A stretch of DNA of 64,000 nt, taken from positions 1,903,975 to 1,967,974 of the forward strand of contig NZ_KB913037.1 in the NCBI RefSeq assembly GCF_000384295.1. Direction: 5' to 3'. Shown here piece by piece: positions 20,901-56,251 of this stretch; within the stretch, counting starts at the first letter, position 1; each line of letters begins with the position of its first letter. A model generated the notes under the pieces. The model made no database searches. It was not told the origin of the DNA and saw only the letters and a program-made list of their open reading frames with translations. The position numbers and the translations under genes were made by a program. Source of the stretch: Amycolatopsis balhimycina FH 1894. GTDB taxonomy: Bacteria; Actinomycetota; Actinomycetes; Mycobacteriales; Pseudonocardiaceae.

Positions 20901-21227
20901 AACCTCGAGCGCGCCCAGCTGGCCTACCTCTCCGCCTGCAGCACCGCGGATCCCGCCAGGTCCGACCTGCTCGACGAGTCCATCCACCTCGCCAGCGCCT
21001 TCCAGCTCGCGGGATTCCCCCACGTCATCGGCACCCTCTGGCCGATCGACGACCAAGTTGCCGTCAAGATCGCCGAGTCCTTCTACACCCACCTGACCAC
21101 TGGCCCGCCTGGAACGCCGGACCCCGAGCAGGCCGCTACCGCCCTGCACCGCACCATCCGGGCGGTACGCGACAACTACCCGATAACCCCCTCACTGTGG
21201 GCGGCCTACCTCCACGCCGGCGCGTAG
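17916..21227 (+). CDS. TPR-repeat CHAT (caspase-like) protease protein
   Basis: 1103 residues. ATG with GAGGGGAAAG upstream. Residues about 150-560 are tandem helical repeats of about 44-45 residues, each with a DLDEAVEMARTAVQATPDDHPDR-like core (seven or more copies), i.e. TPR-like units for partner sensing. The C-terminal 330 residues are a CHAT peptidase domain: catalytic His964 in SHFACHGEAD and Cys1008 in LAYLSACSTA, then FPHVIGTLWPIDD. CHAT proteases act in bacterial conflict systems (for example cleaving gasdermins or partner proteins on sensing infection). It is divergently paired with a small Cys-rich protein and a membrane protein, suggesting a sensor-protease-membrane effector module. 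Confidence 0.88.
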   Translation: MNERDVLLEAVRARLARVAATRDEAAVLEPTALVEAQLLTRCASTPMADLEAAHSLGWLHFYRAQALASESDWEKATAFFKGCFIAGIEHLPQSLLPTLTDRAVPGAMNLLQLASKTMDRDLLEGAVDLWRRIAHNVPDGHPNLIIALTNLGNGLEMLGERTGRSVHLAEAVEVARAALRITPDYHPDRGAPLNLLANALLRRFERAGNLADLDEAVEMARTAVQATDNDPDRVSSLTNLANALLRRFRYRKLPGDLDDAVEMSRAAVRAAPDDHPDRAVFLTNVANALRFRFLRSGSLADLDEAEEVGRAAVQITPDKHPGLVASLGDLGKTLAVRFEHTGDLGDLNRAVDVCRAAIHATPDDHLWYSHQLASLSGLLQLRFGRLGSPADLDEAVQVGEAAVQAAPDDHPDRAAFLSELGNALLARFNSTRDQADLDRAIDASRAAVRSLPDGHPAQAVRLSNLSGVLAARSLRARDNSELAEAVEVGRAAIRATQVDDPGHATALFNLGIHLVSWDLCVGDPTARAEAHSVLEQAVEATTAPPWLRVDAARMAAGLLASSDPGRAAGLLERAVLILPQVVQRRLQRGDQQHALARNADGLAADAAALALADSTGTAQERAIRALRLAEAGRAVLLSQALETRSDLTDLRKKHPDLAGRLTQLRELLDRDRPSAETMGDTGDVAGIGRERHQLAAELEELLERIRAFDGFTAFGLPPTPDTLLAEAAHGPIVTFNISVYRSDALLLTRAGITSCPLPELTQDAVRDRVNAFYRALSEATAHDGDPIAAQRTLREVLEWLWNTAAKPVLSALQDLGEAIPPAQDGQPLPRVWLAPGGLLGQLPLHAAGFHRDPRQGSHRPTVMDRVISSYTPTIRALRHARERRPSPAGQSLIVAMPTTPGCSPLRHVVDETRRIRPLLPHPYQLTEPFPAGDGSTPFAGADTPTTATVLARLPQCAISHFACHGEADRTNPSQSRLLLHDHATTPLTVSALAQINLERAQLAYLSACSTADPARSDLLDESIHLASAFQLAGFPHVIGTLWPIDDQVAVKIAESFYTHLTTGPPGTPDPEQAATALHRTIRAVRDNYPITPSLWAAYLHAGA

Positions 21228-24544: not shown

Positions 24545-27500
24545 TCAACTCGGCTCTCCGTCCAATACCTTGGTCGCCACGAGATACCGGAAGATCGTGT
24601 CCGCCGCCTCGGCGGCCGACTGCACCGACGTGTCTATCCTGATCGCAGGAGCAGCTGGTGGCTCGTAGGGCGAATCGATGCCGGTGAACTCCTTGATCTC
24701 GCCTCGGCGCGCCTTGCGGTAGAGGCCTTTCGGGTCGCGGGCCTCGGCGACGGCCAGCGGGGTGTCGACGAAGACCTCACAGAACTCGTCCTCGGCGACG
24801 AGACCGCGGGCCAGCTCGCGCTCGGCGGCGAACGGCGAGATGAACGACACCAGCACGACCAGCCCCGCGTCGGCCATCAGTGCGGCGACCTCGGCGACCC
24901 GGCGGATGTTCTCCTGCCGGTCGGCGTCGCCGAAGCCGAGGTCACGGTTGAGGCCGTGGCGGACGTTGTCGCCGTCGAGCAGGTAGGTGCGTACTCCGTG
25001 CGCGTGCAGGCGGGTCTCGAGCAGGTCGGCGATGGTCGACTTCCCCGCACCGGACAGACCGGTGAACCACACGACACCGGGCCGGTGCCGGTTGAGCGCG
25101 GTCCGCGCGGCCTTTCCGACGGTCGTGTGCTGCCACCGCAGCCCGGCCGCCACCGGCACGCCGAGGCCCGCGAGCCGCGTCCGGTCCAAGGGCGACGGCG
25201 GGCGCCGATCGAGCCGGGCGGTGAGTACGGCCGCCGCGTCCCGGTTGCGCCCGGCGGCGGCGAGCGCCCGGACGAACGTGTCCTCGATGATCTCGCGCTG
25301 CGCCGCGCTGCCGCCGAGCCGGGCGGCCAGCGGACGGGCGGAGCCGAGCTGGGCCACCGCGTCGTCCCAGCGCTGCTCGACGACCGCGGCCAGGCCCGCG
25401 CACAACGGCGCGACCACCCGCTCGAACACCTCCGATCCGTGGCGGGCGGCGAAGGTGTGCAGCGCCTGCAGCCGTTCGGTGTCCTTCGCGGCGGCCAGGG
25501 CGATCGCCGCGTGCATGGCGGCGAACGGAGTGGGCGGGCGCGTGAGCCACTCTTCCGGTGACGCGGCGAGCGCGGCCGCCGCGCCCCGGCGCTCGTCCCG
25601 GCCACGCGTCATCTCGCAGCGCCACAGCAGCGACGCCGAGTCGACCAGTGCCCGCGGCCCGCGCACGGTGGGCGGTGCGAGGTCCCGTTCATACCGCAAC
25701 GCGACGGCGGCGTCGTCACCCAGCATCAGCTCGTGGAGTGCGGCATGCCAGGAGAAATGCGCACGGCCCTGGCTGTCCTCGCCCCAGTCGGCGATCCAGC
25801 TGTCGAGCCATTCGAGACCCTCGGTGTGCTCACCGGTCTCGTAGAACACGTGCGTGCGCGCGTGGACAGCGTGCGCGGACGCGGGTTCGGCCGCGAGCGC
25901 ACGGGCCGCCAGCTGCTCGGCCTCGGCCCAGCGCTCCTGCTCCTGGCGGACGAAGGCGAGCTGGCCGTGGTACCACCAGTCGTCACCGTAGTCCCCGGCC
26001 AGGCTCTCGACCAGCGACCAGGTCTCGCGGTCGCTGGTGAGACCGCCGAAGGCGATGGTCGGCACGGCAGCGTTCACCGCGAACGCATCGCGCGGATACG
26101 CGGCGATGTGCCGCAGCAGTGCGCGTGCCCCCGAACGCAGGTCGTGCGCGCGGGCCGCGACGGCGGCGACGAAACTGCGTTCGCGGGCGTCCGCGCCACG
26201 CACCGCTTCGCGGGCGGCGCGAAGGTGCCTGCCGACATCCACCTGGCCACCTCCTTCGAGCCCGAGCAGTCCGAGTGCGGCGTGTCCCAGCGCGAAACCC
26301 GGATCGGCCTCGGTCGCGGCCACGAAACGCTCGAGCGCGTGGTGCTGTCCACGCAGGACTCGTTCGACGCCGTCGGTGAACGCCGCCGCTGCCTCGCGGG
26401 TGGTGCTCAGCGTGAGGCCGTAGCGGTCGCGGGGCCGATGCCGGGTCGCGGTCCGCGCGGCGAGGAACTTCCCCACAGCGTCGGCCACGCCCCCGGCCTG
26501 ATCCCGGATTTCCGGCACCGCGGTGGACTCCCACAGCGTGCCGACGCGGGACGCGCCGAGTGTCCACAACGGACTCAAATCTCCGTCGCGGCCCAGCACC
26601 CGGCCTTCGCGATCGGTGCCGAGTCCGAGCCCGTGCGGCCCGGGGGTCGCCAGGCCGGCGCTCAGCAGCGCGGCGACCAGCGGGTCACCGGCCGCACGCA
26701 GATCCAGCTGCGGGCCGGTGCAGTTCACGACCGTGCCGACGCGCAGGCAGGCGCCCGTCGACAACTCGGCACACACGGCGTCGCCGTCCGGGGAGACGCC
26801 GGTGACTTCGCCCCGGTGCAGGTGCAGCCGGCCCGCGCGGCGCAGCTCGCGGATCCGCTCGGCCGCGGCGGGGGCCATGCGATGACGGTAGATGTTCCAG
26901 AACCGGGCGTAGTCTCCGAGGAACCGTTCGCGGTCGGCGTGGGACAGCCCCTGCCAGAGCCGGCCGGCCACGCCGCGCAAGCCGTCGACGGCCGCCCGGC
27001 GGTCGCGCCCGGCGGACGCGGCTCGCCACAACTCGTCGAGGCCGTCCGCCGGGTCGAGCCCGGTCAGGTCGGGCGGCTCGACCCGCCGGTCGTGTGCCCG
27101 GGGCAGCAGGCCGGTGCGCGAAACCGCGTGGATTGTCTGATGTGGACGGTCGAGCTGCAGCGCGACGTCCACCGCCGTGAGGCCGGTGCCGACGAGGAGA
27201 ACATCGCCGTCCACGCCCTCGGTGGCCTGGAAGCCGTCAGCCCAAGGATCGGCGACGAAGGCCGGCGACGTGCGCAAGGACTCCGGTACCCAGTTTCGTC
27301 CTGGCGCGGCGAAGCCGGTCGCGAGCACGACGACCGCGGCCCGCAGTTCCGCGCCTGAACCGAGCCGTAGGAGCAGCCCGCCGGGCGCCCGGTCGATGGC
27401 GGCGACGCGCTCGTGCACCCGGCGTACTGGGACCCGGCTCCGGGCCACGGCCGTGGTGAACCGCTCGGCGAGATAGTCCCCATAGCAGCCGCGCGGCAGG

Positions 27501-27778
27501 AACTCGCCCGGGTCGACGGCGCGGCCGAGGGTTGCCGCAGCCCAGCGCACGAAGTCGTCGGGATCCGTGGCATCGGTGCTCAGCCGACCGGCCGGGGCGT
27601 TCAGGAGGTGGGCGGGCTCGGACGTCGCGTAGGCGACCCCACGGCCGGTGTCCGCGGCCGGGTCCACGACCACGATCTCGTGCCCGTGGGACACGGCCGA
27701 CAGCCGCTGCACCGTCAGCACCCCGGCCGCTCCGGCTCCGACGACGACGATCGACCGGGAGTCCGCCGTGGTTTTCAT
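24545..27778 (-). CDS. Flavoprotein-TPR-APS kinase triple fusion
   Basis: 1077 residues from ATG 27778 (GGAGG 8 bases upstream). Residues 1-445: FAD/NAD(P)-binding protein of the YdhS/NAD_binding_9 type, VVVGAGAAG at 11-19, ATGFAAPG at 153-160, second nucleotide loop VGTGLTAVD at 196-204. Residues about 455-880: helical TPR domain resembling TPR38-type proteins ([35 protein letters not shown]). Residues about 890-1077: complete APS kinase, P-loop GLSGAGKS at 907-914, [33 protein letters not shown] and [17 protein letters not shown]. The kinase makes PAPS, the sulfate donor for the sulfotransferase at 34235. What the flavoprotein and TPR parts do is unknown. Confidence 0.88.
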
Positions 27779-27836
27779 TTCCCTCACCTCCGGATCCGCA
27801 CCAACGCGGTCGGCACAGCGTGACCGCACGCGCTGG

Positions 27837-27867
27837 GAACCGGCTGAAGCGCACCACGAGCCGGTTC
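27837..27867. promoter_or_regulatory. Inverted repeat in rfbA/fusion-gene spacer
   Basis: GAACCGGCT (27837-27845) and AGCCGGTTC (27859-27867) are perfect arms with 13 bases between, centred in the 157-base divergent spacer. Possible common operator for the two outward genes. Confidence 0.5.
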
Positions 27868-27935
27868 AGCAGGCTGCGAGCGGTGCAGGTGAGACTTGCC
27901 CGGTTCGATCTGAGCTGCACAGAGTGGAGACGGCC

Positions 27936-28817
27936 GTGAAAGGCATCGTCCTGGCCGGTGGAAACGGGACCCGGTTGTACCCGATCACCCAGGCCACGTC
28001 CAAGCAACTGCTGCCCGTGTACGACAAACCGATGGTCTACTACCCGCTGTCGGTGCTGATGCTGGCCGGGATCACCGAGATCCTGCTCATCTCGACGCCG
28101 GCGGACCAGCCGAATTTCCGGCGTCTGCTGGGCAGCGGCTCCCAGTGGGGCCTGGAGCTCACGTTCGCCACCCAGCCGCAGCCCAACGGGCTTGCCGAGG
28201 CGTTCGTGATCGGGCGTGACTTCGTCGGCGACGACCGCGTAGCGCTGGTACTGGGCGACAACATCTTCTACGGGCCCGGCTTCTCCGTGACACTGCGGCG
28301 CGCGATGGCACAGCTTGACGGCTGCGTGCTATTCGGCTACGCCGTGAAGAACCCCGAGCACTACGGCGTCGGCGAGTTCGATGCGGCGGGCCGGCTCGTT
28401 TCGCTGATGGAGAAGCCCGTGAAACCCAGGTCCGACAAGGCGATCACCGGGCTCTACCTGTACGGCAACGACGTTCTCGACATCGCGGCCGAGCTCACCC
28501 CGTCGGTGCGGGGCGAACTGGAGATCACCGACGTGAACCGGGAGTACCTCCGCCAGGGCCGCGCGCAGGTGATCGACCTCGGCCGGGGTTTCGCGTGGCT
28601 GGACACCGGCACCCACGACTCCCTGTTGGAAGCGAGCCAGTTCGTACGGGTGCTGGAGAACCGGACCGGCGTGCGGATCGCCTGTCTCGAGGAGATCGCG
28701 CTGCGGATGGGCTTCATCAGCGCCGGGGAATGTCACGCACTCGGCGAGAAGCTCGCCAAGTCGGCCTACGGCGATTACGTGCGGGAAGTGGCCGTGGCCG
28801 CGGGAGGGGCGGCGTGA
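27936..28817 (+). CDS. rfbA: Glucose-1-phosphate thymidylyltransferase
   Basis: 293 residues from GTG 27936 (GGAGA upstream). It converts glucose-1-phosphate and dTTP to dTDP-glucose, the first step to deoxysugars. Signature [20 protein letters not shown] at the N-terminus, then [35 protein letters not shown] and [16 protein letters not shown]; normal family length. In this cluster it would feed the glycosyltransferases. The later dTDP-sugar genes (RfbB-like dehydratase and so on) are not in the window. Confidence 0.93.
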
Positions 28818-28840
28818 GCAACCGCGTGACACGGGCGACG

Positions 28841-28874
28841 CGGCATGTCACGCCGGCTGACATGCCGGCGTGAC
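28841..28874. terminator. Two overlapping, mutually exclusive hairpins after rfbA
   Basis: Hairpin A: CGGCATGTCA (28841-28850) with TGACATGCCG (28858-28867). Hairpin B: GTCACGCCGGC (28847-28857) with GCCGGCGTGAC (28864-28874). Both are perfect, and they share bases so only one can form. Position 23 bases after the rfbA stop suits a terminator; the alternative pairing would also suit attenuation. The 414-base gap to the SARP gene holds this element, a promoter and no gene. Confidence 0.6.
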
Positions 28875-29116
28875 CCGAGGAACACAAGGGTCAGGAAAGT
28901 TCGGTCCGCCCGACCGCCTCAGCGGAAGACAATCGATCCGGCGACGGCAAGGATCTCGACAGGAAACGCATTCTCCCGGGCCGATCGAGACGGAATCCGG
29001 AGATCTGCATCTAATGGGTTCGGCCATTCCGCGGCGGGGGATCCGCGGCCGGACACCCGATGCCCACGTCTTCGCGCACCGGCATCTTCGACACTGGTTC
29101 ACCTTGGTGCATATGG

Positions 29117-29178
29117 GTGGTTGTTTACCGTCGAACCACGGTAGACTGATCTTTCCGAGGACGGACCAGGCCTATACT
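29117..29178 (+). promoter_or_regulatory. Promoter/operator region of the SARP gene
   Basis: TATACT (29173-29178) and TAGACT (29142-29147) are candidate -10 boxes. Over the latter lie two nested inverted repeats: GTGGTT/AACCAC (29117-29122, 29134-29139) and TACCGT/ACGGTA (29126-29131, 29138-29143). This AT-richer patch is the likely control point of the pathway activator. Confidence 0.45.
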
Positions 29179-29231
29179 GAAGATCGTTGCCTGTCGTGGT
29201 TGTCCGAATATTGCCTCTTGGGGGGGACAGT

Positions 29232-31151
29232 ATGAGTGATGGCGTTTTCGTGTCAGTAATGGGTTCACTCGTGCTGCGAAACGGTGAGCGCGTGTTGACG
29301 CCGAGCGCACCCAAGTTGCGAAGCCTGCTGGCCCTACTCGCCTTGCGCAGCAACTACGTCGTGAGCACGGGAACGCTGATGGAAGAGCTGTGGGGGAATA
29401 ACCCGCCGGTGTCCGCGCTCGCCACTCTTCAGACCTACATCTATCAGCTGCGCCGGGTGCTGGCCGAGTGCAGTCCGGGCAGGCAGATCCTCCAGACCAA
29501 GCCGCTCGGCTACGTGATCAGCCTCGATCGGGACGAGCTGGACTGGAACGTGTTCCAGGACCACGTCAAGGACGGCCGGGCCGCACTGGACCGGGGTGGC
29601 GCGGAGGCCGCGTCAATGGCGCTCAGTCGTGCGCTGGCGCTGTCAAGCGGGAACCCGCTGGGCGACGTGGATGCCGGACAGGTGCTGGCCGCCCACGTCA
29701 ACGAGCTGGCGGAGAACAAGCTGCAGGCCCTCGAGTTGCGCATCGAGGCGGATCTGATGCTCGGCCGGGCCAGGGACCTGGTCGTCGAGCTGAAGACGCT
29801 GATCGCCGAGCACCCGTTCCACGAGGTTTTCTACACCAAGCTCATGCTCAGCCTGGAGCGCTCCGGCCGCCGGGCCGAGGCCCTGGACGTCTACCACCAG
29901 TTGCGCAGAACCCTGGTGAACGAGCTGGGCATCGAACCATCCGCCCGAACCCACCAGTTCCAGGCCCAGCTGCTGGCCGCATACGAAGACCCCCACCGCG
30001 ACTCGACCGCGGACAACGCGCCGATCGCCGTCGTCACTCCCCGGTTCCCCCGGCCCGCGCAGCTGCCTGCCGACCTACCCGACTTCGTCGGGCGTGCGGA
30101 CACTGTGGACACCCTGTGCGAGCTGTCCTTGGGTACCGATCGCACGACGTCGGCCCGGTTGCTGCACGTCAACGGGATGATCGGGATCGGCAAGAGCGCG
30201 CTGGCCCTGCACGTCGCGCACCGCGTCCGGGACCGGTTCGCCGACGGGCAGTTCCACGCCGACCTGCGCGGCAGCACCGACCAGCCGGCCGACCCGTCCG
30301 CCGTGCTCGGCCACTTCCTGCACGCCACCGGTCTCACCGATGCCGAACTGCCGCAGGACCTGGACGAACGTGCCCAGATGTTCCGCAGCTGGACAGCGGA
30401 TCGCACGGTGCTCGTGGTGTTCGACGACGTTGCCTCCGGGGCACAGATCCGGCCGCTGCTGCCCGGCGGCAGCCGGTGCACCGTCCTGGTCACCAGCTGT
30501 GGGTGGCTGCCCGGATTGGACGGCGCCAAGGTGATCGAGCTCGACCCGCTGGAGGTGGAGTCCTGCGTCGAGATGCTCGCCGCCATGCTCGGCTGGCGCC
30601 GCGTCGAGGAGGAAGAGGACATGGCGCGCAGCATCGCCGCGCTCTGCGGCCGGCTCCCCCTCGCGATCCGGGCGATCGGCACCAAGCTCGCCGCCGCGCC
30701 CAACTACCCGCTGCGTAAGGTCGTCCGGCGCCTGTCCGACGAACGACGGCTGCTGCGCGAGCTGCGGACGCACGAGTGGACACTGGAAACCCGGCTGGCC
30801 CGGGAGCGCGCCCGGCTCTCGCCGCAGGCCGCCCGGCTGCTGGAATCCATCGCCCGCCGGAGCACCGATCCGTACGTCGACCCCGGCAAGGCCGCCGCTC
30901 TGGCCGACCTCGAACTGTTCACCACCGAACTGCTGCTCGAGGAGCTGGTCCGGACGCGTTTCCTGCGTACGGTCGACCTGGACGGATACGGCGCGGGCGG
31001 ATTCGTCATCCCGCCGGTGATCAGGTCGTTCGTGCTCCAGCTTCCGCACGAGCAGACCGTGGCGCCACGGCAGCCGCCGGAGGGCACGACGATCAACGAC
31101 GAAGCATGGGATTTCGAGCTGCTGGCCCGCAACGGTTACCCAGGGCAGTGA
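29232..31151 (+). CDS. SARP family transcriptional activator with NB-ARC domain
   Basis: 639 residues from ATG 29232 (GGGGGGA upstream). Residues 1-100: OmpR-like winged helix of SARPs (LTPSAPKLRSLLALLALRSN, LQTYIYQLRRVL). Residues about 105-250: BTAD helical domain, ending ELGIEPSARTHQFQAQLLA. Residues about 280-600: AAA/NB-ARC-type ATPase with P-loop GMIGIGKSAL, Walker B TVLVVFDDVASG and LCGRLPLAIRAIG, as in AfsR/RedD-plus-ATPase types; no C-terminal TPR. SARPs activate antibiotic clusters from direct repeats near -35. It sits at the left edge of the polyketide cluster and is its probable pathway-specific activator. Confidence 0.92.
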   Translation: MSDGVFVSVMGSLVLRNGERVLTPSAPKLRSLLALLALRSNYVVSTGTLMEELWGNNPPVSALATLQTYIYQLRRVLAECSPGRQILQTKPLGYVISLDRDELDWNVFQDHVKDGRAALDRGGAEAASMALSRALALSSGNPLGDVDAGQVLAAHVNELAENKLQALELRIEADLMLGRARDLVVELKTLIAEHPFHEVFYTKLMLSLERSGRRAEALDVYHQLRRTLVNELGIEPSARTHQFQAQLLAAYEDPHRDSTADNAPIAVVTPRFPRPAQLPADLPDFVGRADTVDTLCELSLGTDRTTSARLLHVNGMIGIGKSALALHVAHRVRDRFADGQFHADLRGSTDQPADPSAVLGHFLHATGLTDAELPQDLDERAQMFRSWTADRTVLVVFDDVASGAQIRPLLPGGSRCTVLVTSCGWLPGLDGAKVIELDPLEVESCVEMLAAMLGWRRVEEEEDMARSIAALCGRLPLAIRAIGTKLAAAPNYPLRKVVRRLSDERRLLRELRTHEWTLETRLARERARLSPQAARLLESIARRSTDPYVDPGKAAALADLELFTTELLLEELVRTRFLRTVDLDGYGAGGFVIPPVIRSFVLQLPHEQTVAPRQPPEGTTINDEAWDFELLARNGYPGQ

Positions 31152-31197
31152 CCGCGGGTGGCCGCCGGGCGCAGCCGGCGGCCACCTGCGGGGTCAC
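31148..31197. terminator. Bidirectional terminator containing both stop codons
   Basis: GGTGGCCGCCGG (31157-31168) pairs with CCGGCGGCCACC (31175-31186) around GCGCAG; outer arms GTGACC (31148-31153) and GGTCAC (31192-31197) extend it. The SARP stop and the stop of the convergent methyltransferase gene both lie in the outer arms. Confidence 0.75.
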
Positions 31198-32087
31198 AGC
31201 GTGTCGGCGTCGATCCGTGAGAACACCAGGTCCGCCTGGCCGGTGACCGGCTCGCGGACCCGCTGCGGCGGGCGTCCCGGGACCAGGTACGACGACGGCC
31301 GGTAGCTGTTCACCAGCCGGTACGGGTGAAACCCGAGATCGGTCAGCAGCCCGGTGGTCGCCGCGACCGTCCGGCCCTGACGGGCCAGCATGGCCTCGTT
31401 CACCTCGACCACGATCGCCAGATCGGGACGGGTCCGGTCCAGCACCGGCACGAGCCCGCTCAGCGCGTCGTACTCGCCGCCCTCGATGTCGACCTTGATC
31501 ACGCGGGCCGCGCCCAGCTCGGCGGCGGTGAGCAGAGCGGACAGCGGTTTCGCGGCCGCCTGGAACACCGGGTCCCCCGCGGGGACGCTGGTGGTCACGC
31601 TGTGGATCCCTTTTTTCGGCTCGTAAAAGGTCAGCACGCACTCGCTCGCCGCGACCGCGCTGGTCACCTGCCGTACGTTCCCGACCTGGTTGGCGGCCAG
31701 ATTGCCGCGCAGTTCCGAACCCGCGGCCGGGGAGCACTCGATGGCCACGACCGACCCCGTGTGCCCGACGATCCGGGCGGCGAGCAGGCTGAAATAGCCG
31801 ATGTTCGCACCGACGTCGACGAAAACGTCCCCGGGCCGGAGGACTCCGGTCAGCCAGGCGGTCAGGCTGGGTTCCCAGACGCCGAACTGATACAAATATC
31901 GCTGCACGATGTCCCGGGTGTCCAGCATCATCCGCACGCCATTGCCCACGGTCGCGACGCGAATGACCGGATTAGTACGCAACGCCCGATTCAGGTAGCT
32001 GTCGACAATCCATGCCTTTCCCAGTCTTCCCGGCACGAATCGGACATAGCCGCGGGCGATTCCGGCGAGGGACGGCGGTATCGGCAC
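31194..32087 (-). CDS. FkbM family methyltransferase
   Basis: 297 residues from GTG 32087 (AAGGGG upstream). SAM-binding motif GDVFVDVGANIGYFSLLAA near residue 90, VVAIECSP, and the FkbM hallmark IKVDIEGGEYDAL with later VVEVNEAML. These enzymes O-methylate sugar or polyketide hydroxyls in natural-product pathways (FkbM itself acts on FK506). Last gene of a leftward operon of sulfotransferase, aldo-keto reductase, serine hydrolase and FkbM; 29 bases separate it from the hydrolase. Likely methylates a sugar of the product. Confidence 0.88.
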   Translation of the reverse strand: MPIPPSLAGIARGYVRFVPGRLGKAWIVDSYLNRALRTNPVIRVATVGNGVRMMLDTRDIVQRYLYQFGVWEPSLTAWLTGVLRPGDVFVDVGANIGYFSLLAARIVGHTGSVVAIECSPAAGSELRGNLAANQVGNVRQVTSAVAASECVLTFYEPKKGIHSVTTSVPAGDPVFQAAAKPLSALLTAAELGAARVIKVDIEGGEYDALSGLVPVLDRTRPDLAIVVEVNEAMLARQGRTVAATTGLLTDLGFHPYRLVNSYRPSSYLVPGRPPQRVREPVTGQADLVFSRIDADTL

Positions 32088-32116
32088 GTGCCGGCACCCC
32101 TTTCGTGAGAACTTCT

Positions 32117-33262
32117 TCACCGGAATTCCGACAGCTTCCCGTCCGGCACGTGCAAGGCGGCGAAGCAGGTTGTCACCGCTTTGTCCACGGCGGCGAGGAA
32201 GGCGGCGACCGCGGCCGGGTCGGAGCGGTCCACCGCGCCCCGGTTCGCCGAGAGCACCATCCGGGCCGAGCCGTCCGGCACACCGTAGGTGAAACACAGG
32301 AACCCCGGGACACTGCCGAAATGGCCGATGCCGAACCGGCCCGGACCGAATTCCTTGCGGAACAGGCCGATGCCGACGCCGTCGCCGTCGGGTGGGACGA
32401 AGGCGAGCATCTCGGCCAGCTGCGGCGGCGCCAGCAGCCGGCCGGTCAGCAGCGCGGAGACGAAGGTGTCCAGGTCCGCGGTAGTGGAGACGATCGAGCC
32501 TGCCGCCCCGTACCAGGACGGGTGGGCCTCGGTGACGTCGGCGACCGTCAGGTCTCCGTGGTCACGATAGGCGACGTAGCCATGGGCATGGGGACCGGGA
32601 ATGCGCGGGCCGGACGGGACCAGCGTGCTCGCCATCCCGAGTGGTCGCGTGATCCGCCGGCGGATCTGGTCCGCGTACGACGTTCCGGTGATCTTCTCGA
32701 TGACCAGCTGTGCCAGCAGGTAGTTGGTGTTGCTGTAGAAGAACCCCCGGCCGGGCTCGAACCGCGGCCCGCGGGCCAGGGCGAAGCGGATCAGCTCTGC
32801 CGGTTCGTAGCCGGTCGTGAGCTTCCGGATGTACTCCGGGCCGATCGGCGGGAAGATGCCGGGATCACCGGCGCCGTCGGGCCGGTGGTCCCCGGAGTAG
32901 TCGGCCAGCCCGCTCAGATGCATGAGGGCGTACCGGACGGTGATCGCCCCGTCGAGATCGAAATCGGGCAGGTAACGGCCGACCGGGGCGTCCAGGCCCA
33001 GCTCGCCCTCGGCGGCCAGCATGAGTGCGACGGCCGCGACGAACGGCTTGGTGACGCTGCCGATCCTGAACCGGCCCTCGCCGGGCACACCCTCCGGCCG
33101 GCCGAGCCGGGCGAGCCCCGCACTGCCGGTCCAGTCGCCGAGTCCGTCGTGCACCCGGACCTGCACGCCGGCGGCTCCGGCCACGACCAGGGCCGACATG
33201 GCGCGGCGCAGGGCCGCGCGGTCGTCGTCACTCACGACCGGCCGAAACCCATTGGAGGTCAC
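32117..33262 (-). CDS. Serine hydrolase/beta-lactamase family protein
   Basis: 381 residues from GTG 33262; a GTG at 33235 overlapping the aldo-keto reductase stop is an alternative. Class C beta-lactamase/DD-peptidase fold: SVTK at 69-72 (nucleophile Ser69), YSNTNY near 175 as the YxN box, and IGHFGSVPG near 305 as the HxG box. No signal peptide, so it is cytosolic, unlike cell-wall enzymes. In secondary-metabolite clusters such proteins serve as acyltransferases or esterases (LovD type). An acyl transfer to, or hydrolysis of, an intermediate is my inference from its place in the tailoring operon. Confidence 0.82.
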   Translation of the reverse strand: MTSNGFRPVVSDDDRAALRRAMSALVVAGAAGVQVRVHDGLGDWTGSAGLARLGRPEGVPGEGRFRIGSVTKPFVAAVALMLAAEGELGLDAPVGRYLPDFDLDGAITVRYALMHLSGLADYSGDHRPDGAGDPGIFPPIGPEYIRKLTTGYEPAELIRFALARGPRFEPGRGFFYSNTNYLLAQLVIEKITGTSYADQIRRRITRPLGMASTLVPSGPRIPGPHAHGYVAYRDHGDLTVADVTEAHPSWYGAAGSIVSTTADLDTFVSALLTGRLLAPPQLAEMLAFVPPDGDGVGIGLFRKEFGPGRFGIGHFGSVPGFLCFTYGVPDGSARMVLSANRGAVDRSDPAAVAAFLAAVDKAVTTCFAALHVPDGKLSEFR

Positions 33263-34238
33263 GAGAACGCGAGCCGGAGACCGCGTCCGCGATCCGGTCG
33301 AGCGCGCCGAGCTGCTCCGGCGACAACCGGACCGCCACCGATGCGAGGTTTTCGGCCACCCGAGCCGGGAACCTGGTGCTCACCACCGGTACCACGGGGA
33401 GCCCGAACTCGGCTCCCTTCCCGATCAGCCACGCGAGACTCACCTGGGCCTGGGTGGCGCCGGCCGCCGCGGCCACCGCGGCGATACCCGCCACGGCGGC
33501 GAGGTTGGCCGGCAGATTGTGGTCGTGGTATCGCGGCATCAGCGTCCGGCGAAGGTCGTCCTGGTCCAGGGAAGAGGCGGTGACCGTACCTGCCAGAAAC
33601 CCCCGGCCGAGCGGTGAATACGGCACGAAGCCGATCCCGAGTTCCGCCGCGGCGGGCACGACGTTGGCCTCGACGTCCCGGCTCCAGACACTCCATTCCG
33701 ACTGCACCGCGGCAATCGGGTGCACCGCGCACGCGCGCCGGAGTTCTGCCGCGGTCACCTCGCACAAACCGAGATGGGCCACCTTGCCCGCCCGGACCAG
33801 TTCCGCCATCGCGCCGACGGTTTCCTCGATCGGCACGGCCGGATCGGGCCGGTGCAAGTAGTACAGGTCGATCCGGTCCGTCGCCAGCCTGGTGAGGCTG
33901 GCGTCGGCACATTCGAGAACGTAGGCCCGGTCACCCCGGGCCTGCCGCCGCCGGGCCATCAGGTCGCCGGTGATGCCGAACTTGGTCGCCACCGTGACCT
34001 CGCCGCGCCGGTCCGCCAGCAGCCGGCCGACCAGCTGCTCGTTGCCGCCGTGGCCGTAGACGTCGGCCGTGTCCAAGAAGGTGACACCCGCATCGACCGC
34101 GGCGTGCAGGGTTGCCAGTGCGGCCTTCGCGTCCACCTGCGCTTCACTGGTGCGGTAAACGGACATGGTGGTCCCGAGGGCGATCGGGCTGGTCCGCAGA
34201 CCGTCGCCGAGATGTAGTGCCTCCACGGTCGTCCTCAC
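33228..34238 (-). CDS. Aldo-keto reductase
   Basis: 336 residues. TIM-barrel NADPH-dependent carbonyl reductase: FLDTADVYGHGGNEQLVG carries Asp and Tyr of the catalytic tetrad, VATKFGITG the Lys and DLYYLHRPDP the His. C-terminal cofactor site VVPVVSTRFPARVAENL. Start GTG overlaps the sulfotransferase stop by 4 bases (GTGA). AKRs in aromatic polyketide clusters reduce side-chain or ring ketones or keto-sugars; target unknown here. Confidence 0.88.
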   Translation of the reverse strand: MRTTVEALHLGDGLRTSPIALGTTMSVYRTSEAQVDAKAALATLHAAVDAGVTFLDTADVYGHGGNEQLVGRLLADRRGEVTVATKFGITGDLMARRRQARGDRAYVLECADASLTRLATDRIDLYYLHRPDPAVPIEETVGAMAELVRAGKVAHLGLCEVTAAELRRACAVHPIAAVQSEWSVWSRDVEANVVPAAAELGIGFVPYSPLGRGFLAGTVTASSLDQDDLRRTLMPRYHDHNLPANLAAVAGIAAVAAAAGATQAQVSLAWLIGKGAEFGLPVVPVVSTRFPARVAENLASVAVRLSPEQLGALDRIADAVSGSRSRDLQWVSAGRE

Positions 34239-35479
34239 GCCTCGGCGGGGACGCCGAAGCGTTCCCGGTAGTCCGCTGACCGCTCCTGGATCCGGGCCTG
34301 GTCGAGCCCGAGGCCGGCCGCGTCGTAGCGGACCCGGCCGTGCCGGTGCGGATGCCGTCGTGCCCGGATGGCGTTCATCGCTTCCCTTGTCTCGGCGGTC
34401 AGCGGTATTCCGGCCTTCGCGTATATTTCACCGACCACGCCGTCGGTGTCGTCGCGGATACGGGAGAACTGGACGTCGACGATGCGCTCCTCGTCGACGT
34501 ACGCGCGATCCCGCGCACAACATTCGACCATCCCGAGAACGCGTTCGGTCCAGTAGCCGGCGGTGCGCACCGGATCCACCTTGTTCGTGATCAGCCGCTG
34601 ACCGTAGGCCAGCAGCGTGCTCATCGACGGGATCACCACGGCGGGGTCGCGATGCGTGCACACCACTGTGGCACCGGGGAAAGCGGTGGCCAGCGGCCGC
34701 AGCTGAGCCATGTGCTGGATGGTCTTCAGCACCCACGGGCCGCCGCCGCGCCGCCAGTGCAGCGCACGCAGGACTCGTGCCAGGTACTCGTAGGCCGGTG
34801 TCTGGTCGGTGGCCAGGAACCATTCGCCGTAGCTCGGCAGCGGTGCGCCCTGGATCTGGAAGAGGATCGACGAAAAGCTCAACCCCAGCAACGCGAGTTC
34901 CTCGATCGACGCACCCTCGTCGACATCGATCATCTTCTTCAGCAACGGCAGGTTCTCGTCCAGTATCCGCTGCTGTTCCGCCTGGGCCGGATCGTCGGCG
35001 ACGGACGCCGCGGCCGGTTCCGGCGGACCTTCCGCCTCGCCCTTGGCGAGCCTGCGCAGCCGGGCATCCGAGCCGAGCAGGTTGTGCAGGAACGTCGTTC
35101 CGGAACGCGGCAGGCCGGCGATCACGATGGGCGGGTCCAGGGGCCGGTGCTCGATCTCCGGGTGCTCCTTGATCAGCTGCTCGACCCGCAGCCGTCCGCA
35201 CAGCAGGCGGTGGAGCTGGAGCCGCAGGGTCACCGCACCGAGCGGGCTGAGGTCGCCCTCCGCGTGCAGTGCGCGGCAAAGCACCTCGAGCGGAGTGCGG
35301 AACCAGTCCGAGCCGAAGTCGGTGAGTCCGGTCTGTTCGACGGCCGCGGTGAGCAGGCGCTCCGGGTCGATTGCGGAAAACTGGTCCCGCCTGCCGATTC
35401 GCTCGCATATCGCGCGCATCTCGTCACTCAGCTGCGGATCGGCCAGATCGGCGACTTCCGTGAAACTCGAACTGGTCAT
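34235..35479 (-). CDS. PAPS-dependent sulfotransferase
   Basis: 414 residues from ATG 35479 (GGAGGG 8 bases upstream). The 5'-phosphosulfate loop is at 122-131 (GLPRSGTTFL), and the 3'-phosphate site is plausibly VVCTHRDPAVVIPS near 260. It belongs to the bacterial sulfotransferase_3 group that sulfates small molecules. First gene of a four-gene tailoring operon. The cluster also carries its own APS kinase domain (24545), so donor and transferase are both supplied; the acceptor is probably a hydroxyl of the glycosylated polyketide. No ATP sulfurylase gene is in the window, so APS must come from primary metabolism. Confidence 0.88.
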   Translation of the reverse strand: MTSSSFTEVADLADPQLSDEMRAICERIGRRDQFSAIDPERLLTAAVEQTGLTDFGSDWFRTPLEVLCRALHAEGDLSPLGAVTLRLQLHRLLCGRLRVEQLIKEHPEIEHRPLDPPIVIAGLPRSGTTFLHNLLGSDARLRRLAKGEAEGPPEPAAASVADDPAQAEQQRILDENLPLLKKMIDVDEGASIEELALLGLSFSSILFQIQGAPLPSYGEWFLATDQTPAYEYLARVLRALHWRRGGGPWVLKTIQHMAQLRPLATAFPGATVVCTHRDPAVVIPSMSTLLAYGQRLITNKVDPVRTAGYWTERVLGMVECCARDRAYVDEERIVDVQFSRIRDDTDGVVGEIYAKAGIPLTAETREAMNAIRARRHPHRHGRVRYDAAGLGLDQARIQERSADYRERFGVPAEA

Positions 35480-35679
35480 GAACAAGCCCTCCCGGCTGGT
35501 TCGGGATACCGGAGCAGCTTCCCGCCGGGCACTGTGGAATCACTGTGGCGCCGGGATCGAGCGAGCCTCTAGCCGGTGGCCGCCGCGGATATCGGCGCCG
35601 GACGAGAGTCGTTGTGCGTGGTAGAATCGGCGTTCCGTACGTGGGGGCATATCGCGAGCAATCAGAAGGACGGATCCGG

Positions 35680-50630: not shown

Positions 50631-53488
50631 ACCGCGGCTCCTCGCCGGGAACGCAGAATCTCCCGCCAGCGGTCCGCGAGGCGAACCGCCCGCTCCGCCG
50701 GGAGGGCGTCCGGCCGGTGCCACAGCAGCGCACGGTTCTCGCCCGGGTGGATCTCCAACGCCACTTCCATCGCCGAGCAGGGCGAGGGCAACCGGATCCG
50801 GCGGGCGGTGGCGCCTGGCAGCGTCAGGGACGCGGGTTCGGTGTTCTGCAGCGAAAAAACCGCCTGGCACACCGGTGCCCTGCCGTTCGGTGCGCGCTGG
50901 GCGGCGAGCTGCTCGATGGGTACGTGCTGATTGGTGAGCAGTCTCGCCAGCAGGGTCGTGGCGTGCTCGACGCAGTCGTCGAACGTCGCGGCTTCGCCGG
51001 GGAAACGGAGGAAGGCCGAGGTGGCGAAGCAGCCGATCACGTCATCGGCGGCGGGCAGCGTACGGCCGAAGAGCGGCATGCGCAGCGCGAAATCCGCGGC
51101 GCCGGTCTCCGCGCGCAATGCCTGGACCCACGCGGCCAGCCACTCGGCGGTGCTCGCCGGGATCAGCGCGAGAGGGTGATCGGTGACCGGATTGGCCCCC
51201 TCGGCCGCGGGGTCGAGGGGAAGATCCGGGACGCCTCGGAGGTGCTCGTGCCAGAACGGGTCCGGGGCCGGTGCCGTAGTGACCTCTTCGCGGGCCACGG
51301 CCCGGAAGCCCGGGGCCGGACGCAGTTCGGCACCGGTGTAGGCGGTGGACAGGTCCCGGCAGAAGACCGACTCCGACGCGCCGTCGATCGCCACCCGGTG
51401 AATGGCGACGGCGAGCAGGTGGTCGTTCTCGCCGCGGCGGAAGATCGCTGCCCTGAGCGGCGGGCCGGCGGCCAGGTCGAACGGCTTGGCGCAGAACGAG
51501 TTCACCGCATCCTCGGTGAACTCGCCGTTCGCGCACTCCGGCGGACGGTCGGTGGGCACGGCTTCGACAAACCGGTGCGAATGCCTGCGCAGCACCGAAT
51601 GCAGTGCTTCGTGCCGGACGGCGACAGCGCGCACGGCGCGCAGGCAGGCCGCGGTGTCGAGCGGGCCGGTGATCTCGAACAGCAGCGGGTGGATCAGCTC
51701 CGCGGCACCGGGCCGGTGCTCCTCCGCCCACCACATGCGGTACTGGGTGATCGGCAGGCCGGCCACCCACCGGGTCGGATCCGGTTCGGCCGACCGGGGG
51801 CCGCCGGGCTCACCGGGTATCGCGGCGGCGATCGCCGCCGGGGTGCGGTGGGCGAGCACCGTGTCCGCGCGCAGGCGCAGGCGGCCGGCGAGACGGATGA
51901 CCGTGATGGAGTCGGCGCCCGCGTCGATCAGATCGGTGTCCTCGCCGACGCGGGTGCCGAGCAGGTGGGCGGCGATCCGGACCACGGTGGCGACCGGGGC
52001 CTCGGTGCCGGCCGGGGCCGTGGCGGGGCCGGCCGACACCGAGGCCCGCGCGGGGACGGCCAGCGCGAGCAACGCGCCGGTGTCCGTCTTGCCGTTCGCG
52101 GTGGTGGGCATGGCGTCGACGCGGTGCACGATGCGGGGCACGAAGGCGGCGGGGAACCGCCCGGCCAGCCGCGCCCGGATGACGGCGGGGTCGGCCGCGC
52201 CGACGTAGCAGGCCAGCGTCTCGGTGCCGTTCGGCGCGGCCAGCAGGACGCTGCGGTGCACACCGGGCACCTCGTTCATGGCCGCTTCGACCTCTTCCGG
52301 CACGATCCGGGCGCCGCGGATCTTCAGCTGCCGGTCGGTACGGCCGGTGAAATGGAGCAAGCCGCGCTCGTCCACCCGCCCGAGGTCACCGGTGTGGTAG
52401 CCCTCGGCGCGGAACCGCTCGGCGGTGACCTCCGGCTCGCCGAGGTAGCCCGTGCCCAGCCCGTCGCCGGCGAGGACGATCTCGTCGTTTTCGAGGAATA
52501 CCCGGGTGTTCGCGATCGGTACGCCGATGGGGATCTCCCCCTCGCCGACGGTTTCCGGGATCTCGTACGCCGTGGCGAAGATCGTGCTCTCCACCGGACC
52601 GTAGCCGTTGATGATCCGCAGTTCCGGCGCGGCGGCGCGGAGCAGGGCCACGTGCGGCGGCGAGATCTTCTCCCCACCGGTCAGCACGCACCGCAGGCCG
52701 TCCAGGCACCGCACGTCCGCTTCGACGAGCGCGTTGAACAGGCTCGTGGTCAGCCACACCGTGTCGACTCCGCCGGCGATGACCCGGCGCAGTTCCTGCG
52801 CGCCGGGATGGTCGCCGTCGTACAACGCGCTGGTGCCACCGTTGATCAGCGGTCCCCACAGCTCCAGCGAGTGGGCGTCCCAGCCGAGCGGGGAGATCTG
52901 CAGCAGATGCGTGCCGGAGTCCATGCCCAGCAACGGGTCCAGCGCGATCCGGGTGGTACCGGAATGCGGGGTGAGCACCGCACGGGCACGTCCGGAACTG
53001 CCCGAGGTGGAGAACACACAGCACGGATCGGCCGGCCCCCCGGTGACACCGCGCAGTGGACGGTCGGCGGGGATCGCCGGTGACGTGTGTTCGTCGATCA
53101 CCAGTTTGGCGCCGCACCGGGCGACGATGTCGTCGAACCTGCTCTGCGGCCAGTCCATGGCACTGCCGGCGTACGCGGCGCCGGTCGCCAGCACCCCGAG
53201 CAGCACGGCGACCAGATGTGGCCCCCTCGGCAGCCGTACAGCCACGACGTCGCCCCGGCCGACCCCTTGCGCGGCAAGGCTTCGCCGTTCCGCTTCGGCG
53301 GTACGGCATAGCTCGAGGTAGCCGATTCTCCGGCCCCGCCAGGTCAACGCGGTGGCCTCCGGCGTGTCCCGGGCCCAGCGGGCGATCAGCGCGTCTACTC
53401 GTCCACCCAGCGGGTAGCCGATGCTCGGTCCGGTCAGCATGGGCCCCAGCGAAGCACGGCCGGCTCGGGCGGCTCTGGAGTGAGTCAC
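50627..53488 (-). CDS. Stand-alone NRPS protein, domains A-PCP-C
   Basis: 953 residues from GTG 53488, overlapping the CLF stop (GTGA); ATG 53440 is an alternative. Adenylation domain at about 20-470: STSGSSGRARAVL 160-172, NGYGPVEST 294-302, GDGLGTGYLG 341-350, HTGDLGR 365-371, final Lys in NGKTDTG 465-471. By eye the specificity residues read D-A-L-L-L-G-G-I-F-K, hinting at a small aliphatic amino acid (weak). PCP at about 495-560, Ser527 in DAGADSITV. Condensation domain 570-953 whose HHxxxDG motif is H697-R698-VAI-D702-G703: the catalytic second His is Arg. It sits where ACP normally follows CLF. Role: loading an amino-acid-derived starter or attaching an amino acid to the polyketide. Confidence 0.9.
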   Translation of the reverse strand: MTHSRAARAGRASLGPMLTGPSIGYPLGGRVDALIARWARDTPEATALTWRGRRIGYLELCRTAEAERRSLAAQGVGRGDVVAVRLPRGPHLVAVLLGVLATGAAYAGSAMDWPQSRFDDIVARCGAKLVIDEHTSPAIPADRPLRGVTGGPADPCCVFSTSGSSGRARAVLTPHSGTTRIALDPLLGMDSGTHLLQISPLGWDAHSLELWGPLINGGTSALYDGDHPGAQELRRVIAGGVDTVWLTTSLFNALVEADVRCLDGLRCVLTGGEKISPPHVALLRAAAPELRIINGYGPVESTIFATAYEIPETVGEGEIPIGVPIANTRVFLENDEIVLAGDGLGTGYLGEPEVTAERFRAEGYHTGDLGRVDERGLLHFTGRTDRQLKIRGARIVPEEVEAAMNEVPGVHRSVLLAAPNGTETLACYVGAADPAVIRARLAGRFPAAFVPRIVHRVDAMPTTANGKTDTGALLALAVPARASVSAGPATAPAGTEAPVATVVRIAAHLLGTRVGEDTDLIDAGADSITVIRLAGRLRLRADTVLAHRTPAAIAAAIPGEPGGPRSAEPDPTRWVAGLPITQYRMWWAEEHRPGAAELIHPLLFEITGPLDTAACLRAVRAVAVRHEALHSVLRRHSHRFVEAVPTDRPPECANGEFTEDAVNSFCAKPFDLAAGPPLRAAIFRRGENDHLLAVAIHRVAIDGASESVFCRDLSTAYTGAELRPAPGFRAVAREEVTTAPAPDPFWHEHLRGVPDLPLDPAAEGANPVTDHPLALIPASTAEWLAAWVQALRAETGAADFALRMPLFGRTLPAADDVIGCFATSAFLRFPGEAATFDDCVEHATTLLARLLTNQHVPIEQLAAQRAPNGRAPVCQAVFSLQNTEPASLTLPGATARRIRLPSPCSAMEVALEIHPGENRALLWHRPDALPAERAVRLADRWREILRSRRGAAV

Positions 53489-54672
53489 CGGCTCAGCACC
53501 ACCGCCGAGTTGAACCCGCCCGCACCGCGGGCCACCACCAGCGCGTGCCGCGGTGCCGCTTCCCGGGGCCTGTCGACCACCAGATCCAACGCGGCCGGGG
53601 CATCGACGCCGGTCGTCGGCGGGATCACGCCGTCCCGCATCGCCAGCAACGCGGTGGCCACGTCCAGCGCACCGGCGCCGGAATTCAGCCGGCCCACCAT
53701 CGTCTTCGGTGCCGTCACGGGCACCCCACGGACGCCGAACACCGCGGTCAGCGCAGCCACCTCGATCAGGTCCAGGCCGGGAACCGCGGCGGCATCGGCG
53801 AACACGACACCGATGTCCGCCGGGGTCAGCCCGGCATCGGCGAGCGCCAGCTCGACGGCCCGGCGCAACGCGGGTGGCCGGCCGGTGTGCGCGGCGGGGT
53901 CGAAAGTGGACGCCCACCCGGCGATCGTGCCGTAGCCCGATCCCGCGGATTTCCGCTCCACCACGAGCATCGCGCCCCCCTCGCCGGGTACGTGGCCGGC
54001 CGCGTCAGCGCTGAAGGGCAGGTAGCACCGCCGCGGATCGTCGCTGTGACTCAGCCGGCCACCGGCCATCTGGCACACCAAAGCGTACGGCGACAGCGGC
54101 GCCTCCGCACCGCCGGCCAGCATGACCGTCGCATCGGCGCGCAAGGCCCGCCGGGCCTGCGCGAGCGCGTCCAGCCCGCCCGCCTGCTCGGCCACCAGCA
54201 CGTCGCACGGGCCACGCGCACCCATGCGAATGGACACCTGGCCCGTGGTGGCCGCGTAGAACCAGGCGATGGATTGGTAGGCGCTCACCCGCGCCGATTC
54301 ATCGCCCCAGAGCTTTTCCATCTCGTGCTGGCCGAACTCGTTGCCGCCGGAGGAACTCGCGGTCACCACACCGAACTCGTACTCGGGCAGCGCGCCCGGA
54401 TCCACGCCCGCGTCGGCCAGTGCCATCGCCGATGCGGCGAGCGCGAACTGGGTGTACCGGTCGGTCTGGGACCGCAGCCGTCCGGGCAGGTACGCGCCGG
54501 CGTCGAAGTCCGGCACCGTGCCCGCCAGCTTCGTCGGGTACCCGGTGGCGTCGAACCGGTCGATGGGCGCGATCCCGCCGCGGCCGGCCAGCGTCGCCGA
54601 CCAGTACGCCTCGGTGCCCACCCCGTTCGGCGCGATCACCCCGATCCCGGTGACGACCGCGGGCATCATCAC
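53485..54672 (-). CDS. Type II PKS chain-length factor (KS-beta)
   Basis: 395 residues, GTG start overlapping the KS-alpha stop. Thiolase fold like KS-alpha but with Gln163 in place of the active-site Cys ([10 protein letters not shown]), the hallmark of chain-length factors, which decarboxylate malonyl-ACP and set chain length. C-terminal [20 protein letters not shown] lacks the catalytic His of a ketosynthase. With KS-alpha it forms the membrane-free heterodimer of the minimal PKS. Chain length cannot be read safely by eye. Confidence 0.95.
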
Positions 54673-55940
54673 CGCCCTCCGTGTCTGGTCAGGACAATCG
54701 CGCTCTGGAACCCGCCGAACCCGCTGCCCACCTTGAGCACCGCGTCGATCTTGCGTGCCCGGGCCACGTGGGGAACGTAGTCCAGGTCACAATCCGGATC
54801 CGGCACGTCGAGGTTGGCCGTCGGCGGTACGACGTCGTTCGTCATCGCCAGTACGCAGGCAACCAGCTCGATCGAGCCGATCGCGCCCAGCGAGTGGCCG
54901 ACCATCGACTTCAGGGAGCTGATCGGCACGTCGTAGGCGTGCGCGCCGAGGCTGGCCTTGAACGCGCCGGTCTCGTGCCGGTCGTTCTGCGGGGTGCCGG
55001 AGCCGTGCGCGTTCACATAGTCCACTTCGGACGGATCGAGCCGGGCGTGACCCAGGGCACGCCGGATCGCCTCGGTCATCTCCCGGCCGTCCGGTTTCAG
55101 CCCGGTCATGTGGAACGCGTTGGAGCGGGACGAGAATCCGCCGATCCGGGCGTACACCTGCGCGCCACGCCGCCGGGCGGCGGTCGCCTCCTCCAGCACC
55201 AGTGCGGCGGCTCCCTCACCGAGCACGAACCCGTTACGCCGCAGGTCGAACGGGCGGGAGGCGTGCTCCGGGTCGTCGTTGTCCGGCGTGGTGGCGTTGA
55301 TCGCGTCGAAGCACGCCGTGGTGATCGGCGAGATCGGGGCGTCCGCCGCACCGGCGATCATCACGTCCGCGCTGCCCTCGGCGATCAGCTGGGCCGCGTA
55401 ACCGACCGCGTCGATGCCCGCGGTACACCCGTTGGAGACCAGCGACACCGGGCCTTCCGCACCGCAGTCGAGCGCGACCTCCTTCGGGATGGAGCTCGGC
55501 ACCAGGTACTCGTACAGGTACGGCGACGCCTTGTCGTTGTCCACCAGCCAATTCCGGCCCCGGTCGCTGACCGTGCAGTAGTTCTGTTCCAGGCGCATGG
55601 TGTTGCCGACCGCGCTGCCCAGCGCGACGCCGAGCCGGTCCGGTGGCATGGTGTCGAACTCGAGCCCGCTGTCCACGATCGCTTCCCGCGCACTGACCAG
55701 AGCGAACTGCACCACCCGGTCGTGCCGGTCACGCTCCTGCGCGGTGAGCCCGGCCGGCAGCGGGTCGAAGTCCACCTCGGCGGCCACCCGGGAGCGGAAC
55801 CCGGTGGCGTCGAACAGCGAGATCGTGCGGGTCGCGGTACGGCCGGCCGCGAGCAGCTGCCAGAATTGCTTCGCGCCGACGCCTCCGGGGGCCACCACAC
55901 CGACCCCGGTGATGACCACCTCCCTCGCGACCCCCGGCAT
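54669..55940 (-). CDS. Type II PKS ketosynthase (KS-alpha)
   Basis: 423 residues from ATG 55940, overlapping the TcmI-type cyclase stop (TGATG); an ATG at 55952 would add four residues. Active-site Cys172 in [10 protein letters not shown], His residues in [12 protein letters not shown] and [12 protein letters not shown]. It condenses malonyl units on ACP into a poly-beta-ketone. The length and sequence ([16 protein letters not shown] start) are typical of aromatic PKS. No acyltransferase gene is present, so malonyl transfer relies on FabD of fatty-acid synthesis. Confidence 0.96.
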
Positions 55941-56251
55941 CACAACGGCCATGTGTAGAACGGCTTGGCCATCGCGTCCGCGGGCCCCTGCCAGGACGGG
56001 TGATACGGCGCGACCAGCGGCTTGAGCTTGGCATTGATGTCGTGCCACAACGGGTGGTCCCGAACCCGGGCGATGTCCGGTTCCCGCTCGGACTCGATCA
56101 GGTGGAAATACAGGCCGTGGAAGGAGAACAGGGTCCGCCGGCCCACGCCGACCAGATGCGGCAGTGCGGTCGCATCGGACTCGGTCCACAGCTCGGTGAT
56201 CCGGTCCAGGTCCTTCGGATCGGCCTTCGCCACGATCAGTGTGCGGTTCAT
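55940..56251 (-). CDS. TcmI-family polyketide cyclase
   Basis: 103 residues from ATG 56251 (AGGAGG 9 bases before). Dimeric ferredoxin-like fold of Tcm[76 protein letters not shown] and the end [10 protein letters not shown]. TcmI-type enzymes close the last ring(s) of tetracyclic or pentacyclic aglycones. First PKS gene of the KS-CLF block and translationally coupled to KS-alpha. Confidence 0.94.

Follow-up and report, generated by a model that had tools for sequence, protein, structure and literature searches.

A three-part protein ending in an APS kinase

The 64,000-nucleotide stretch of Amycolatopsis balhimycina FH 1894 DNA analysed here (hereafter the window; C1:1903975-1967974 of a single-contig chromosome of 10.86 Mb) carries a type II polyketide synthase (PKS) gene cluster. 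One of its genes encodes a protein made up of an FAD/NAD(P)-binding flavoprotein, a tetratricopeptide repeat (TPR) superhelix and an adenosine 5'-phosphosulfate (APS) kinase, and a sulfotransferase of the type that uses 3'-phosphoadenosine 5'-phosphosulfate (PAPS) is encoded nearby on the same strand. The features in question are as follows.

24545..27778, minus strand: three-part protein, FAD/NAD(P) flavoprotein - TPR - APS kinase, 1077 aa
26462..27778, minus strand: flavoprotein part, residues about 1-439, NAD_binding_9, with the dinucleotide motifs GAGAAG and GTGLT, and NCTGP
25151..26461, minus strand: TPR superhelix, residues 440-876
24548..25120, minus strand: APS kinase domain, residues about 887-1077, preceded by a low-confidence linker (876-886)
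25034..25060, minus strand: APS kinase P-loop GLSGAGKST, residues 907-915
34235..35479, minus strand: PAPS-type sulfotransferase (Sulfotransfer_3), 414 aa
35093..35116, minus strand: 5'-phosphosulfate binding loop GLPRSGTT of the sulfotransferase

An earlier, sequence-only reading of this DNA had described a single 1077-residue frame joining a flavoprotein, a TPR domain and a complete APS kinase, and domain scores and motifs bear this out. The kinase domain scored 223.2 bits against PF01583 (cut-off 21.1) and 249.3 bits against TIGR00455 (cut-off 138.7), and its P-loop and conserved substrate motifs, located by script, aligned with those of solved APS kinases. The C-terminal domain is a complete APS kinase, predicted from its sequence to form PAPS from APS and ATP. 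The flavoprotein part matched NAD_binding_9 at 132.8 bits (cut-off 21.8), and the glycines of both dinucleotide motifs were kept at 90% or more across an alignment of 57 rows, from which conservation was read because regular-expression counts of three flavin motifs (50/80, 39/80 and 74/80) proved too strict. The TPR superhelix was recognised by structure, its sequence match to TPR alone lying under the cut-off. A scan for promoters and terminators at the gene found nothing. The same reading had known of no characterised protein with this three-part architecture, and searches of the literature found none; the fusion is new, and cluster-encoded supply of PAPS is already known.

The fusion is rare. 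Four of the 120 best matches (out of 7,846), its own entry included, also carry an APS kinase, and the remaining 116 have NAD_binding_9 without APS_kinase. The three other fused proteins are 67, 65 and 61% identical to it and share all three parts, so the frame is not an assembly join, which had been named as one finding that would undo the proposal. Of 171 relatives in GTDB genomes 80 loci were kept, and two of these encode the fusion: L003 from Kibdelosporangium aridum and L005 from a genome labelled Rhodococcus rhodnii; P0003, L003 and L005 formed one close group. The fusion was present in 1/60 genomes of the same genus (its own) and in 2/120 of the same family (its own and G149), and plasmid records gave no match with more than 80% coverage and no full-length relative. 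The match coordinates in G149 equal those in G177, the 12.4 Mb genome of L005, labelled Rhodococcus rhodnii NRRL B-16535; this species label looks wrong, because G149 is placed in the family of the window's own host.

The two-part flavoprotein-TPR pair is, in contrast, common in actinobacteria. Databases call these proteins 'lycopene cyclase', 'YdhS' or 'FAD/NAD(P)-binding protein'; they correspond to the first two parts of the fusion, with 45-66% identity among those listed, and lack the APS kinase. In a tree built by a quick method, all fused proteins fell in one clade of 10 rows (SH-aLRT 98), inside which four two-part proteins (P0005, P0006, P0012 and P0017) were nested. The kinase part was therefore probably lost or split off in these nested forms.

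A candidate sulfation module in a polyketide cluster

The sulfotransferase reached 106.5 bits with PF13469 (cut-off 27), and a script located GLPRSGTT and HRDP...S, its 5' and 3' phosphosulfate-binding motifs, so that the nearby sulfotransferase with a phosphosulfate loop described earlier stands. Judged by sequence, this enzyme and the APS kinase of the fusion are both intact. It matches nearly full-length the solved sulfotransferase-like proteins 2z6v (E 1e-31) and 2zq5 (E 2e-30), whose molecule name is 'putative uncharacterized protein' and which are mycobacterial. The gene heads four overlapping or abutting genes on the same strand, given below with the principal polyketide and sugar genes.

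33228..34238, minus strand: aldo/keto reductase, 4-base overlap with the sulfotransferase gene, likely same operon
32117..33262, minus strand: beta-lactamase-family (PF00144) protein, same likely operon
31194..32297, minus strand: FkbM-family methyltransferase, end of the likely operon, start uncertain
53485..54672, minus strand: chain-length factor (KS-beta), type II PKS
54669..55958, minus strand: KS-alpha, type II PKS
27936..28817, plus strand: rmlA (glucose-1-phosphate thymidylyltransferase), transcribed divergently from the fusion gene, start placed by eye

The pairing of KS-alpha with a chain-length factor marks the cluster as type II (aromatic). It also encodes a polyketide cyclase, an ABM-type monooxygenase, five EryCIII-like glycosyltransferases, a P450, an adenylation-carrier-condensation protein, an SDR and a luciferase-like oxidoreductase. 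An orthologue search with the sulfotransferase in 296 genomes gave matches in 13, its own included; outside its own genome, identity did not exceed 45%, and no sister cluster emerged. Among named isolates, Actinoplanes sp. NPDC051411 supplied the closest relatives of both the sulfotransferase (75%) and KS-alpha (81%), and a second pair was 62% and 68% identical, respectively. Within each pair a shared contig was deduced from equal sizes (81,540 and 1,164,462 bases), and this apparent co-location suggests that the sulfotransferase and polyketide genes of the cluster belong together.

The genome was found to have two APS kinases: the one in the fusion, and a CysNC located at 8.19 Mb with an adjacent CysD, which is taken as housekeeping. 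The fused kinase domains fell into a second APS kinase group, which also contains stand-alone kinases as well as other CysNC proteins and lies apart from the genome's own CysNC. Bifunctional enzymes of the CysNC and PAPSS type likewise carry an intact, covalently attached APS kinase domain, but their partner is ATP sulfurylase or CysN, whereas that of the fusion is a flavoprotein-TPR chain. PAPS cassettes with a dedicated sulfotransferase are described for adipostatin (adpP1-P3/adpST; PMC12135136), notonesomycin (nbc9-11/nbc48; PMC7081687) and ascamycin (acmA/B/W/K; PMC4257720), and PMC9113183 likewise reports cluster-encoded PAPS supply. As in the three named cassettes, an APS kinase and a PAPS sulfotransferase lie here in one biosynthetic cluster; unlike in those, the kinase step alone is local, inside a three-part protein, and ATP sulfurylase (CysD/CysN) has no match in the window or its flanks. 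A compact Inositol_P - CysD - CysNC - DUF1214 - Sulfotransfer_3 cassette was seen in the same-genus genome G013 (L105:6809-12686, plus strand), which gave no flavoprotein-TPR match in the same-genus search.

We favour, with a probability of about 0.6, the reading that the locus encodes a sulfation module belonging to a type II cluster for a glycosylated polyketide, with PAPS synthesis fused to a flavoprotein-TPR protein. From what is known of these enzyme families, APS would be made by CysD/CysNC elsewhere on the chromosome, the C-terminal kinase domain would phosphorylate it to PAPS, and the cluster sulfotransferase would pass the sulfuryl group on to a polyketide glycoside hydroxyl, or to one of an intermediate. 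The N-terminal part would be a flavin oxidoreductase, probably a class B-type monooxygenase, and the TPR superhelix a docking surface; its oxidation target and the docking are speculative, as is the notion that the fusion would bring the oxidation step, the supply of PAPS and possibly also the acceptor together in a single assembly. Should the product be sulfated, as the sequence-only reading had supposed, the window would encode an aromatic polyketide both heavily glycosylated and sulfated, its sulfate donor coming from a cluster enzyme. Searches of the literature yielded no such compound with a cluster-made donor, nor the identity of the cluster product.

The sulfate might instead be cryptic, serving an intermediate as leaving group or as temporary charge but missing from the final product. 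PAPS genes do serve clusters that process sulfate further, as in the sulfamates ascamycin and nucleocidin (PMC4257720, PMC9113183 and PMC10946740), azinomycin has AziH1-3, as cited in PMC7081687, and the window carries two EHN epoxide hydrolases besides the adenylation-carrier-condensation protein. Leaving-group chemistry is, however, not readable from genes, and the sulfotransferase's neighbours, an aldo/keto reductase and an FkbM methyltransferase, look like late tailoring; we regard this course as unlikely.

Three other genes in and around the cluster deserve mention. At 35545-38088 (plus strand), within it, lies a PPDK_N and PEP-utilizer protein resembling rifampin phosphotransferase, PEP synthase and the RedH/PigC ligases, all far under the NCBIfam cut-offs. 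Near the cluster edge (17916-21227, plus strand) is a gene for a protein of 1103 aa that combines TPR repeats with a C-terminal CHAT domain, and a type I PKS with a KS-AT-DH-MT-ER start begins about 13 kb beyond the end of the window (L108:13478-19900, plus strand).

Linkage of the flavoprotein-TPR family with sulfation genes

In the near relatives of the fusion, an APS kinase was fused to the flavoprotein-TPR gene or lay within 25 kb of it in 6/13 genomes (L003, L005, L006, L007, L009 and L049). The arrangements differ: CysD-CysNC lies upstream in L009, across a divergent Rrf2 gene, and L007 has cysC-cysD-cysN upstream and a KS-alpha downstream; a CysN fragment lies upstream of the gene in L055, at a contig edge. 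A sulfotransferase of one of three families (PF13469, PF00685 and PF17784) was present within 25 kb in 6/10 near genomes, where 0.11 were expected by chance, a ratio to be taken as a guide since the genomes are related and were picked as closest or already PAPS-linked. These were Sulfotransfer_1 in L006, Sulfotransfer_3 in L009 (two pieces, 55 bits together) and Sulfotransfer_4 in L007, L016, L049 and L055; the last four are one lineage, and counting three independent events gives a Poisson value of 2e-4. No member of the three families lay within 25 kb in L003, L005, L031 or L004. The PF13469 and PF00685 search covered the 13 near genomes except L008, L029 and L030; in L029 and L030 the PF17784 search placed sulfotransferases on contigs other than that of the flavoprotein-TPR gene. 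Going by the PF13469 and PF00685 results, L007, L016 and L049 had seemed to have PAPS genes but no sulfotransferase; PF17784 refuted this, with a match in each of the three at 10-22 kb from the flavoprotein-TPR gene. The tie of this family to APS kinases and sulfotransferases thus recurs, in one part of the tree, and this linkage is new. The fusion in this way serves as a pointer, tying an uncharacterised actinobacterial protein family to PAPS chemistry and yielding a short list of clusters.

Several observations weigh against a sulfation module. Among 30 more distant genomes, an APS kinase lay within 25 kb in none, and the nearest pair on one contig was about 319 kb apart, figures to be read with many contigs being short and an APS kinase not being seen in one genome; the core job of the family thus need not be sulfation. 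Both other fused loci, L003 and L005, are among those with no sulfotransferase of the three families nearby, which speaks against a cluster-only role, and in L003 the 10 genes scanned of 23 called included no PKS, NRPS or sulfotransferase. No CysD, CysN or CysQ-like match occurred in the window or its flanks of about 34 kb (L107/L108), CysD/CysN being found only at L106, 8.18 Mb. Family-wide linkage to sulfotransferases was rejected as not significant: 3/30 distant genomes had Sulfotransfer_3 within 25 kb (Streptomyces calvus L061, Nocardioides pocheonensis L068 and strain OK074 L054) against 1.15 expected (P 0.11). This search used PF13469 throughout, and PF17784 in four genomes (L010, L041, L059 and L075), with one match, in L041, on another contig.

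The nucleocidin producer bears on the same question. In S. calvus a two-part flavoprotein-TPR gene (L061:9971-12694) is flanked by a purine-nucleoside-phosphorylase-like gene and a glycosyltransferase. A beta-glucosidase gene comes further along, and upstream are genes for a sulfotransferase and for gyrase-methyltransferase-like and rubrerythrin-like proteins; the genes were read by eye, with sulfotransferase matches from the PF13469 search. This agrees with the nucleocidin cluster described in PMC10946740, PMC7017864 and PMC8694150. Since the flavoprotein-TPR relatives P0022, P0074 and P0083 are named lycopene cyclase in databases, this gene is probably nucleocidin orf8, a 'putative lycopene cyclase' that PMC10946740 reports as non-essential ('data not shown'). 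Its dispensability, the sole experimental result found on the family, speaks against an essential catalytic role there and is a further point against our reading.

It also lends support to a plain operon fusion, in which an APS kinase became joined to an adjacent flavoprotein-TPR gene with no functional coupling, the flavoprotein carrying out an unrelated oxidation. L006 (Amycolatopsis vastitatis), with a separate APS kinase downstream of its flavoprotein-TPR gene, shows the adjoining but separate state, the nested two-part forms make the fusion seem reversible, and the linker in the fusion protein is of low confidence. Yet the linkage recurs with the kinase fused or downstream and with CysD-CysNC or cysC-D-N upstream, and it involves three sulfotransferase families, which exceeds what a single accidental fusion would produce; such a bare joining seems to us rather unlikely. 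Alternatively, the pair could serve sulfur supply by converting sulfur compounds taken up by the cell to activated sulfate, instead of tailoring a single product. Divergent Rrf2-family regulators stand beside the flavoprotein-TPR gene at 12/80 loci in more than one clade (that of L009, L009:10707-11174, being the only one family-scanned), permeases that look SsuC-like by eye occur at 11/80, and the Kibdelosporangium-type fusion lies outside any cluster seen. The permease count is nevertheless modest, judged by eye and partly due to one Streptomyces clade, and the sulfotransferase link is strong in the very clade holding the fusion, which makes sulfur supply a distinctly unlikely role.

Fold and possible role of the flavoprotein part

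The flavoprotein part has the fold of class B flavin monooxygenases, being alike to the L-aspartate N-hydroxylase FzmM (PDB 8cp5/8cp2; PMC10404684), FMO (4usr) and the ornithine N-hydroxylases. Foldseek rows for the fusion include KtzI, PvdA and SidA; FzmM was absent among the 50 rows listed, an absence that rules out no fold family. The part is probably a two-dinucleotide flavin oxidoreductase of the class B monooxygenase type. Some APS kinases are redox-regulated. The sequence-only reading had pictured the flavoprotein-TPR part as coupling redox or partner binding to PAPS supply; the flavoprotein half would then sense or transmit redox state to control PAPS output. The presence of flavoprotein and kinase on one chain, together with a human structure bearing the title 'oxidated APSK1 domain' (8i1m), points in that direction; we hold such regulation to be very improbable. 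A bolder extension of the sulfation-module reading, which we consider improbable, is that the flavoprotein-TPR family includes a class B (FzmM/FMO-like) oxygenase creating the hydroxyl or N-hydroxyl acceptor for sulfation, that its TPR part docks sulfotransferases of several families, and that the APS kinase fusion is an enzyme which both oxidises and supplies PAPS. Were this true, the flavoprotein-TPR protein would be a partner in sulfation across actinobacteria in general.

An N-N bond (diazo/hydrazine) route via nitrosuccinate, prompted by the FzmM-like fold and by a lyase and a glutamine-synthetase-like gene at L007, was rejected: the L007 lyase is the adenylosuccinate lyase PurB (TIGR00928, 389.8 against a cut-off of 326.2) and reached only 132.6 with the nitrosuccinate lyase model (cut-off 650). 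The window proteins scanned gave no lyase match. An extra purB was observed about 8 kb from KS-alpha in a related Streptomyces type II PKS locus (L137:15281-16552, plus strand).

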